A stretch of DNA of 64,000 bases from Atribacter laminatus (GTDB lineage: Bacteria; Atribacterota; Atribacteria; Atribacterales; Atribacteraceae): positions 992,001 through 1,056,000 of the forward strand of contig NZ_CP065383.1 in NCBI RefSeq assembly GCF_015775515.1. Direction: 5' to 3'. Shown here piece after piece: positions 9,835-54,520 of this stretch. A program made the position numbers and the translations under genes. How positions within the stretch are numbered: position 1 is the stretch's first letter; the number at the start of each line of letters is the position of its first letter. The notes below the pieces were generated by a model. That model ran no database searches, was not told where the DNA came from, and saw only the letters and a list, made by a program, of their open reading frames with translations.

Positions 9835-10239
9835 ATGTTACAAAAAAGTCGTATTATTTTTCTTATCGTTAGTTTAGTAGCAATTTTTACATTATTGCTG
9901 GGGTGTACTCCACCCTCACCAACACCAACACCGACACCGCCTGATGATATTGACAGGGCTCGGGACCTGGCTATTGCGAAAGCAAATGATGCCGGGAATG
10001 AGGTTCCAACCAATATTACTAACTGGACCAGGCAAACCATACCAGCAACAATGCCTGGAGGGACTATGTTGGTGAAATACTCTGGAGTTTCAAATGGAAA
10101 CTGGTATATTGATATTTCCTATACCTCGGGATTGTCATTGGAAAATACTGATTATTCTGTAACGATTCAGTTTGATGGTATGCCAGCTATTTGGACTGGG
10201 ACAATAACCTATGAAGAGTTGTATCCAATAGTATATTAA
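9835..10239 (+). CDS. Small lipoprotein with Pro-Thr linker
   Basis: A 134-residue protein of unknown function. The N-terminus has positive residues, a hydrophobic stretch and the lipobox LLLGC near residue 24, so it should be lipidated and membrane anchored. A short Pro-Thr linker (PSPTPTPTPP) follows. The remaining 95 residues look like one small beta-rich domain with several Trp and Tyr residues (NWTRQTIPATMPGG, WYIDISYT). I recognise no family. TAGGAGGTGAT precedes the ATG at good spacing. It ends at a bidirectional terminator shared with the gene from the opposite side. Confidence 0.75.
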   Translation: MLQKSRIIFLIVSLVAIFTLLLGCTPPSPTPTPTPPDDIDRARDLAIAKANDAGNEVPTNITNWTRQTIPATMPGGTMLVKYSGVSNGNWYIDISYTSGLSLENTDYSVTIQFDGMPAIWTGTITYEELYPIVY

Positions 10240-11884: not shown

Positions 11885-12192
11885 CCTCCTTTCAAAGGAT
11901 ATATTGGAATATTAACATATTTTATAGTTTTGAAACAAAAAAATACATTTTTGTGTATTTATTTCTAAGATTAAGATTGTTTTTACCTTCTGATTTTTTA
12001 TTAACCATTTTCTTTTAACTTTGTTCCTGAGAGATTGTTTTAGATCAATTCTAATTTTTATATAACCAAAGAAAAGATAATAGAAAAAAAATTTAACTTG
12101 ACTTTAAAAGAAAATTAAATATGATTTGAATTTGAATGTTCCTATAAAAATGTTATTATTAAAGTGGTTTAATAAAATAGGAGGTCGTTTGA
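11885..12192. other. Gene-free AT-rich spacer
   Basis: About 300 very AT-rich bases between divergent genes. They probably carry both promoters. I see no repeat copy and no stable hairpin. Confidence 0.45.
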
Positions 12193-12588
12193 ATGAAAAG
12201 AACTTATTGGATTGTTATGGTCATTTCAGTTTTATTACTTACTCTTACTATGTCTGGTTGCTTATGGAAGGCTCTCAGCAGTGGCTCAGGTAGCGCAACC
12301 CCGACTCCGTCCCCCACTCCAACACCAACGCCAACTCCAACACCAACCCCAACCCCGACTCCAACTCCAAACTCTGGCCTAACCTGTACAACCTGTGATA
12401 CCTGTGCTACATGTACTCCAACTCCAAGTCCAACCTGTACAACCTGTGATACCTGTAATACTTGCCCAACACCAACACCAACCTGTAATCCTTGCACAAC
12501 CTGTAATCCTTGCCCAACCCCAACCTGTGATCCTTGCCAGACCTGTGATCCTTGCCAGACCTGTGATCCGTGTTGTAATCCTTGTTAA
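12193..12588 (+). CDS. Lipoprotein with Pro-Thr linker and CxxC repeat tail
   Basis: A 131-residue predicted lipoprotein. The signal sequence ends in LTMSGC, a lipobox-like site near residue 23. A low-complexity Pro-Thr stretch follows (about residues 36-58). The last 70 residues are a repeat of Cys-x-x-Cys units separated by short PTPTP spacers, with 20 cysteines and the recurring triplets CTTC, CDTC, CNPC and CDPC. No known domain fits. Such spacing could bind metals or Fe-S clusters or form a cross-linked surface stalk; this is inference. AGGAGGT lies upstream of the ATG. The DNA of the tail is itself a tandem repeat, so length may vary between strains. Confidence 0.75.
   Translation: MKRTYWIVMVISVLLLTLTMSGCLWKALSSGSGSATPTPSPTPTPTPTPTPTPTPTPTPNSGLTCTTCDTCATCTPTPSPTCTTCDTCNTCPTPTPTCNPCTTCNPCPTPTCDPCQTCDPCQTCDPCCNPC
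12301..12576 (+). repeat. Tandem repeats inside the Cys-rich lipoprotein gene
   Basis: First an ACNCC-type hexamer array coding Pro-Thr (12301-12370), then 15-18-base units coding the CxxC triplets. The last two full units near 12521-12560 are identical 18-mers (ACCTGTGATCCTTGCCAG), which suggests recent slippage or unequal exchange. Confidence 0.8.
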
Positions 12589-12655
12589 AACTGTAGCCTG
12601 TAATAATTGTATTTTGGACTAGAAAAAACTAAATAACTAGTTAATAAATAAATAG

Positions 12656-12716
12656 GATAGGCTACCCTAATGCATAGTTATAGTGACTACAAAAATTATG
12701 GTGACCTATCTTTTTT
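12656..12716 (+). terminator. Probable terminator after the Cys-rich lipoprotein gene
   Basis: Arms GATAGGCTACC (12656-12666) and GGTGACCTATC (12700-12710) pair with one internal mismatch and are followed directly by six T. The loop is long (33 bases), so this could be a more complex structured 3' end. Confidence 0.5.
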
Positions 12717-12814
12717 ATTTAAAATGTTCTCAATATTTATGCTGAATGTTATTCTTTGACAATTTTTTATGAGTTGACCTTGTTAATAGATTTCGGTATT
12801 CAGTGATAATGAAA

Positions 12815-34924: not shown

Positions 34925-35562
34925 TTAATAACGTTACTTTCTTCCATTAAGGGGTGAGGGGAAACTCTCCCCTTTAGAAAAAGGAGATGAAGGGGATTTG
35001 AATTTTTCACTGCTCCGTCATTCCAAGGAACGCAGTGACGTGGCAATCTCATCCATCTGCTCCGTCATTGCGAGGAGCGCAGTGACGTGGCAATCTCATT
35101 TAGTAATTTTTTTAAAATAATGTAAAGATGAGATCCTCACGCCCTCGAAAAGCGAGGGCTCAGGATGACACCGGCAGTGTCAGATGAGATCCTCACGCGG
35201 GAAAGCACCAATCCGGATGACCGATTAAAGAATTCATTTGAAAGTATTTACAGGTTAAACCCGTATGCTGCTTTCGCAGCACCAGATGATGATTAAAAAA
35301 CCCAAGATTCGACATGCCATGGCATGTCGCTACATTAATTAAAGAATGGGCATAATACATTGTGCCCTTGGAATTTTAAATTCTTTTGTAGGGGCTTGAT
35401 TTATCATGCCCACATATAGATTTTCAGGATAGACCTTCATGCTGCTTTCGCAGCACCAGATGAATATGAAAATAAGTTGCCCCCTCACCCTGACCCTCTC
35501 CCACCGAGGGGCGAGGGAAAAAAGAACAAAAGAATTCAGAGTTCCTTCTCCCTTGATGGGAG
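34925..35562. repeat. Repeat island 3, target of an IS element
   Basis: Gene-free mosaic. It holds hairpin repeats at 35017-35050, 35064-35097, 35130-35169 and 35186-35221, the AGGATAGACC/GCTGCTTTCGCAGCACC module twice (about 35265-35290 and 35427-35462), the palindrome repeat at 35311-35328, the CCCCTCACCC module at about 35478-35520 and the CTCCCTTGATGGGAG module into which the IS element inserted. Confidence 0.8.
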
Positions 35563-54059: not shown

Positions 54060-54520
54060 AAAAAAAAATAAAGGCACACCCCCCTGAATCCCCCCTCAAT
54101 GGGGGAATGAATTCAATAATTATAAGGGATGAGATTCTCATGTCGTATAATAGGTTCCTCAGAATGAAAGAATGGCTAAATGAGATTGCCACGTCGCTGC
54201 GCTCCTCGCAATGACGGAACAGGTGGATGAGATTGCCACGTCGCTGCGCTCCTCGCAATGACGGAGCAGTAAAAATCAAATCCCCTCTTCCCCACCTTCT
54301 AAAGGAGGGCGGAGTTCAACTTCTGAGTATATATTTTCATCCTCATCTGGTGCCACCAAAGTGGCATGAAGGTCTATTTTAAAAACCTACGGGCAAGATA
54401 AATTAAGCCCCTACCAAGGATTATTTTAAAATTGCAGAGCCACAATTTATTGTACCTGATTAATGTAGCGACATGCCATGGCATGTCGAATCCTGGACTT
54501 TCACCCCATCCTGATGTAAC
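54060..54520. repeat. Repeat island 4
   Basis: Gene-free mosaic downstream of gdhA promoter and of the aldo/keto reductase gene. Hairpin repeats lie at 54130-54168, 54182-54215 and 54229-54262. The composite palindrome repeat is present in reverse at about 54340-54500 (palindrome at 54470-54487). The GGGGGAATG module starts the island. Confidence 0.8.

Follow-up and report, generated by a model that had tools for sequence, protein, structure and literature searches.

Why would an anaerobic bacterium export a protein tail of which nearly a third is cysteine, and what would keep the thiols of such a tail useful? The question is raised by a short gene of Atribacter laminatus, an anaerobe of the deep subsurface, in the stretch of 64,000 nucleotides analysed here (the window), which corresponds to bases 992001-1056000 of the 3.10-Mb single-contig genome. 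According to PMC12453122, obligate anaerobes tend to keep Cys out of exported proteins, and a conserved tail with 30% Cys, exported in a phylum (Atribacterota) in which neither DsbB nor VKOR was found in the genomes searched, therefore stands against expectation.

Architecture of the gene and its product

The gene (12193..12588, forward strand, as are all window features with two-dot coordinates below) encodes 131 amino acids followed by a TAA stop, a reading supported by the sequence, the relatives and dN/dS. The protein starts with a Lys-Arg segment and a hydrophobic core, which lead to the lipobox TMSG-C and LWKALSSGSGSA; a Pro-Thr linker and then a Cys tail follow. It contains 21 Cys in total, i.e. 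the lipobox Cys23 and 20 within the last 67 residues. Residues 1-22 (12193..12258) read as a type II signal peptide that aligns with those of the relatives, and an AF2 model places a helix over this region at residues 2-29. In lipoproteins the lipid goes on the lipobox Cys, and Cys23 (SGC; 12259..12261) is the predicted attachment site; it is kept in 6/6 relatives with an N-terminus, and the lipobox in the window and these six is [MLV]SGC or LPGC, with PGC in genome G013. Directly after the lipid Cys lies the family motif LW[KR]xL(S/A) (12262..12285), likewise present in all six. The Pro-Thr linker (12298..12369), recognized from translation, repeat scan and alignment, ends at residue 59, and a composition count delimits a 67-residue tail from residue 65 (12385..12585) with 20 Cys, mostly as CxxC. 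By its n-region, hydrophobic core and invariant lipobox Cys the predicted product is a lipoprotein; what the sequence gives as to location is a signal for lipid attachment, and exposure at the cell surface is putative.

Translation would start from the RBS AGGAGGT (12179..12185), seven bases 5' of the ATG, and AGGAGGTC occurs at this site in 4/4 aligned members of the genus, the window counted. A sigma-70-like promoter candidate, TTGACT-16-TATGAT (12098..12125; 10/12 matches), is weak: the motif scan returned 4 sites vs 3.6 expected from shuffles, i.e. no excess, and among the congeners both hexamers are kept in G005, TATGAT alone in G003 and neither in G001. Downstream, a long hairpin with a T-rich run behind it (12645..12721) folds as a possible, equally weak terminator; the interval 12601-12735 folds at -28.3 kcal/mol, a figure that stands without a shuffle control, and a terminator scan found none downstream of the gene. 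A strong hairpin is also present about 90 bases past the stops in G005 and G003.

The initial annotation described a lipoprotein with a Pro-Thr linker, a 20-Cys tail made almost only of CxxC triplets and two identical 18-mers in its DNA. The lipobox, linker, Cys count and 18-mers are borne out, whereas the description of the tail is slightly overstated: 15 of the 19 Cys-Cys gaps are two residues long, and the others are one gap of 0 (CC) and three Pro-Thr spacers of 7, 6 and 4 residues. In composition the tail has 20 each of Cys and Thr, 14 Pro and 13 other residues. As background, the highest density in any 67 residues, far below that of the tail, was 10 Cys among 251 proteins encoded in 276 kb of the genome, a sample from a crude gene caller that missed the Cys-tailed gene itself. 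The two 18-mers stand in tandem (12523..12558; 12523-12540 is identical to 12541-12558), and Tandem Repeats Finder reports period 18, 2.6 copies and 100% match over 12523-12569. In the AF2 model the mean pLDDT is 53.9, with values below 50 over residues 58-131, and no fold is predicted for the tail; built on an alignment of two sequences, the model is weak evidence of disorder.

Relatives, constraint and descent

Relatives of the gene are present in 8 of 50 Atribacterota genomes, the window's counted, with 8/25 in the order of the window and 0/25 outside it: the window, G001, G003 and G005 in one genus, G008 in another genus of the same family, and G013, G015 and G020 in another family of the order. 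Their common features are GCLW[KR]xL(S/A) at the lipobox, a C-terminal Cx(2-3)Cx[LIF] and Cys pairs with Pro-Thr linkers between them. Of 61 genomes searched with the protein, 31 matched at E<=1, mostly via the signal peptide and Pro-Thr linker alone. A profile search matched 14 of the 50 phylum genomes at E<=0.01, of which eight were kept and six dropped: G018, G019, G023 and G024 had no linker frame with at least 3 Cys in 30 residues at the loci examined, G026 has short Cys-containing ends without the GCLW motif, and G002 carries a larger class of lipoprotein considered below. The DNA pattern CxxCPTxTPT..CxxC was found in 7/50 phylum genomes, G015 being missed because it has CxC, and in 0/291 genomes of one other phylum, with a reversed-pattern control giving 0 in both sets; the pattern was built from the family itself, and 0/291 speaks for specificity of the layout, not for absence of all Cys tails. 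Among the genomes searched, the family is thus seen in a single order of Atribacterota. In G026, outside the order, contig C296 (L033) has small lipoprotein frames in tandem, whose long Pro-Thr linkers are followed by the ends CTGCGCGL and CGCGCGV, the second frame being cut by the contig end.

The search for further tail-bearing proteins, proposed in the initial annotation, was successful, and frame decay, named there together with lack of homologues as the mark of a low-complexity artefact, is not what these relatives display. Reading frames are complete and open in G001, G005, G013 and G015, and open up to the contig limits in G008, where the tail runs off the contig, and G020, where the contig start cuts the N-terminus; the G003 tail is broken by an assembly gap with two N. 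The relatives keep the N-terminus, the tail composition and the C-terminus, and we reject the artefact. In the six pairs of four congeners, dN/dS for codons 1 to 41 ranges from 0.04 to 0.16, at dS values of 0.44 to 1.48, some near saturation; by this measure the N-terminal part is under purifying selection in the genus. The tails do not align and lie outside the dN/dS estimate.

Repeat number was suggested to be changeable, and between species it does vary: the six complete tails span 41 to 76 residues and 10 to 20 Cys (20, 18, 19, 10, 13 and 14), with an odd Cys count in 2/6. Spacing shifts between CxxC and CxC across relatives with the paired Cys retained, and in the G015 tail five of the six Cys clusters are CxC and one is CxxC. 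None of the seven tails contains His, Lys, Arg, Glu, Trp or Tyr, and beyond Cys, Pro and Thr the complete ones have only a few residues, which are small, polar or aliphatic except for a terminal Phe in G013. The relatives differ in the codons used for Cys, Pro and Thr (GC3 0.17 to 0.53), while the residues themselves remain; paired Cys recur across four genera and two families with differing codons and lengths. With no His in any of the seven tails, the haem motif CxxCH is absent, and we therefore reject a haem protein or c-type cytochrome; electron transfer through haem, one form of the surface electron transfer that had been proposed, is not supported.

The C-terminal Cx(2-3)Cx[LIF] is found in 6/6 relatives with their end present, as CxxCx[LIF] in five (CGPCQL in G005 and G003, CSQCPL in G015, CIQCSF in G013, CTQCQL in G020) and as CxxxCxI in G001 (CTSGCSI). 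The window protein ends CNPC before a TAA; in frame behind this stop come N C S L and another TAA (12586..12603). The TAA at 12586 removes these last four family codons, including the conserved last Cys. Aligned by eye, the DNA from TGT at 12592 and the G005 gene end share the order TGT, two codons, TAA, one codon, xTG TAy TTT. Since the family C-terminus continues in frame past the first TAA and this alignment supports it, either the window strain has an early stop or the sequence record is in error there. In G005 and G003, in-frame repeat DNA coding for PTPTC or LTPTC lies 3' of the stop (L028, 8818-8850; L030, reverse strand), perhaps as a relic of a longer tail.

The gene is divergent to a TPR gene in all four genus genomes that have both (window, G005, G001, G003). 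G002 and G004, two of the five other genus members, have no relative of the gene and the TPR neighbour is missing too; in G006, G007 and G009 a TPR relative (44 to 51% identity) is present with no such Cys tail in its 1.5-kb flanks, and in G008 the TPR relative and the Cys gene are on different contigs. In G013, G015 and G020 the Cys gene adjoins a gene for a 278- or 279-aa protein (G013/G015 53%, G013/G020 81% identical), and on its other side in G013 and G015 stands an isocitrate/isopropylmalate dehydrogenase gene (assigned by Pfam on G013; the G015 copy is 93% identical), followed by the gene for the exonuclease VII large subunit. The latter also lies 4.7 kb from the Cys gene in the window and in G005, and this arrangement suits vertical descent within a single neighbourhood. 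No gene with an evident role in metal handling stands beside the Cys gene, the Pfam neighbours being a TPR protein, RNase H and a Metallophos protein. The window also encodes a second small lipoprotein (9835-10239, +) with a Pro-Thr linker and no mature Cys, which is kept in G005.

Redox setting and possible functions of the tail

Known families give little guidance. Pfam returned only Blr (0.31) at E<=1 and no family model; NCBIfam gave four weak matches, all far below cut-off, and GltJ on the Pro-Thr/Cys region reached E 0.0009 but 18 bits vs a cut-off of 450. The tail alone had no sequence match in the PDB. An origin from a phage or plasmid is rejected, there being no PHROGs match at E<=0.1, no confirmed case among 92 IMG/VR stretches that matched the peptide pattern and no plasmid match to the tail alone; an RNA element is rejected as well, since Rfam at its gathering scores matched nothing in the window. 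Family models often miss proteins that are short and rich in Cys. We found no paper on the family for Atribacter Cys-rich lipoproteins, the wider literature being judged by titles and the starts of abstracts. By its sequence the protein is a Cys-rich lipoprotein with a metallothionein-like tail and without a Pfam, NCBIfam or PHROGs model.

The state of thiols outside the membrane is central to what such a tail might do. In profile searches DsbB and VKOR were each found in 0/50 Atribacterota genomes, the same VKOR and DsbB searches matching 3 and 6 of 14 control genomes, and the thiol-carrier domain DsbD_TM was found in 44/50. Thioredoxin_4, which has the fold of DsbA, is present in 17/50 at E<=0.001 (15 above cut-off); in the genome under study the match lies at 28.7 kb, in a protein of 551 aa that also has a DsbD_TM-like part scoring under the DsbD_TM cut-off. 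A cluster of this genome (G000:C1:26000-36000, L101), ~970 kb from the Cys-tailed gene, encodes a DsbD_TM protein, a fusion of thioredoxin and DsbD_TM-like parts, and two proteins with thioredoxin domains which, judged by eye, appear to be exported; an AhpC/TSA-type lipoprotein of the cluster has a short Pro-Thr linker. The cluster also includes an SBF-family transporter, which we take to resemble arsenite exporters of the ACR3 type, together with an ArsR-like gene. In the 276-kb sample, which excludes the Cys-tailed gene and applies simple rules for export, exported non-lipoproteins (37 proteins) contain 0.60% Cys vs 1.24% in proteins without membrane spans (124 proteins), and lipoproteins 2.51% (seven proteins, mostly through one). 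Together, the lack of DsbB and VKOR matches, the frequency of DsbD_TM and the Cys-poor exported proteins suggest a reduced state for thiols outside the membrane. Other oxidants are possible, as PMC12453122 reports an oxidase of the AhpC/TSA family and DsbA-like proteins that lack a DsbB partner.

Combining these data, we tentatively favor, with slightly less than even confidence, the reading that the tail is a reduced, disordered, metallothionein-like trap for soft metals tethered to the envelope, because Cys spacing shifts between CxxC and CxC, Cys numbers are odd in two complete tails, His is absent, DsbB and VKOR were not found and DsbD_TM is common. In this model, (i) Sec export and lipidation would hold the protein to the envelope, probably at the outer membrane, (ii) the Pro-Thr stretch would serve as a stiff spacer, (iii) the tail would stay reduced owing to the anoxic envelope, DsbD/CcdA-type carriers and thioredoxin-like proteins, (iv) paired thiolates (CxxC, CxC, CC) would chelate Zn, Cd, Cu(I), Pb, Hg or Fe, the tail acting like a metallothionein fixed outside the membrane, and (v) slippage would add or remove binding pairs with the frame intact, since the length of each repeat unit is divisible by three. 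In PMC8028610, metallothioneins are described as intracellular proteins with >30% Cys in CXC and CXXC motifs; peptides with these two motifs form the most stable complexes among the spacings compared, and short peptides with such spacings bind Zn, Cd, Pb and Ni. The Atribacterota tails resemble metallothioneins in ~30% Cys, in CxC, CxxC and CC motifs, in the lack of His and in having no predicted fold (in the two-sequence model), and differ from them in being exported and lipid-anchored, in the Pro-Thr linkers between Cys pairs and in matching no metallothionein model of Pfam or NCBIfam. Against metal binding stand the lack of a neighbouring metal gene, the intracellular location described for metallothioneins, the lack of a match to a metallothionein model or, for the tail, in the PDB, the occurrence of Thioredoxin_4 in a third of the genomes, the AhpC/TSA lipoprotein, which could be an oxidant, and the loss of the conserved last Cys in the window strain.

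A broader proposal, which we regard as less likely than not, is that the order carries a lipid-anchored, metallothionein-like brush in which reduced external thiolate tails would bind soft metals or seed metal sulfide, as members of a broader group of lipoproteins rich in Cys and with length and capacity tuned by in-frame slippage. Should the tail bind metal, Atribacterota, with their unusual envelope and very small number of cultured members, would have a counterpart of metallothionein that is extracellular and tethered to the membrane. A cultured member of the phylum has three membrane-like layers. The cultured Atribacter described in PMC7736352 is probably of the same species, which makes the system testable.

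The main rival to metal binding is a disulfide-linked net, in which the tails would cross-link with one another and with larger Cys-rich lipoproteins into a covalent outer layer; it is possible but less likely than metal binding, and we consider it unlikely overall, because neither DsbB nor VKOR was found and DsbD_TM is frequent. The Cys-poor exported proteins and the odd Cys numbers in two complete tails point in the same direction. A random net needs no fixed Cys spacing, oxidants beyond DsbB and VKOR are possible given the Thioredoxin_4 matches, and 42 kb away the genome encodes another lipoprotein, of 283 aa, with 26 Cys in its mature part. Many CxxC in an attached protein are also found in the variant surface proteins of Giardia, which are eukaryotic, large and held by a transmembrane anchor, and the likeness is an analogy only. 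Pfam, which presumably contains an OmcA model, sets the protein apart from Chlamydia OmcA and OmcB, Blr being its sole match; to our knowledge OmcA has no Pro-Thr repeats, and the lack of DsbB and VKOR in the 50 genomes is a further difference from OmcA. PMC2811131 presents OmcA, the 9 kDa outer membrane lipoprotein, as small and Cys-rich, features that the protein studied here shares, and the Chlamydia Cys-rich outer membrane complex as thought to form a covalent disulfide layer. One of the readings in PMC7736352 sees a peptidoglycan layer, so that a substitute wall would be unneeded.

Alternatively, the tail could act as a thiol buffer or relay in redox chemistry outside the membrane, removing oxidants or handing on electrons, with its CxxC pairs reduced by exported thioredoxins and by carriers of the DsbD/CcdA type. 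Thioredoxin has the same CxxC motif, the host is anaerobic, and DsbD_TM and thioredoxin-like proteins are encoded in the same genome; however, the G015 tail with its single CxxC, the lack of a haem motif and of a predicted fold that could set a redox potential, and the distance to the thioredoxin cluster make this function quite improbable. Still less probable is a mainly passive role, as a Pro-Thr stalk or as a mucin-like carrier of glycans, in which the Cys pairs would only add stiffness or the repeat would be a by-product of slippage. The tandem repeats at the DNA level and the Pro-Thr linkers in other lipoproteins of the genome fit this idea, but the neighbouring lipoprotein at 9835-10239 has its linker and no Cys in the mature part, paired Cys recur across genera and families despite differing codons and lengths, and the C-terminal motif is kept in every relative with its end present. 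A lanthipeptide-like precursor, considered for the Thr/Cys content, was discounted in view of the Sec lipoprotein signal.

Larger Cys-rich lipoproteins and a dispersed repeat

The 283-aa lipoprotein with 26 mature Cys (G000:C1:961511-962362, reverse strand, L081) has the tail CCGFSGSDCCVEPICETCEPCPIGSSACL and no Pfam match, and look-alikes, grouped by eye, are present in G002, G007, G008, G009 and G015. A second Cys-rich lipoprotein of 180 aa with 9 mature Cys adjoins it. This class resembles the Cys-tailed protein in its lipoprotein-like start, linker and Cys-rich C-terminus and differs in a longer domain between linker and tail and in lacking the GCLW motif; its tail is CCxEPxCxxCxxCPxG or close to it in the genome's own copy, G002, G008 and G015.

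In PMC7736352, RT761_00907 is a top-ten expressed lipoprotein of strain RT761. The FtsZ genes (109 and 2377 kb) and fasciclin genes (781 and 1815-1839 kb) of the genome analysed here lie in agreement with the tags 00112, 02154, 00748 and 01694 listed there for RT761 of Atribacter laminatus, so that the genome is probably that of RT761 or of a very close strain. Taking the fasciclin gene at 781 kb as 00748, a rough gene count, which includes doubtful short calls and misses the Cys-tailed gene, places tag 907 near 955-962 kb, close to the 283-aa lipoprotein, and the Cys-tailed gene near tag 950; by this placing the Cys-tailed gene is probably not RT761_00907.

Elsewhere in the window, 47-bp tandem repeats at 35010-35099 and 54156-54269 share GATTGCCACGTC-type sequence in opposite orientation and probably belong to one dispersed repeat family.
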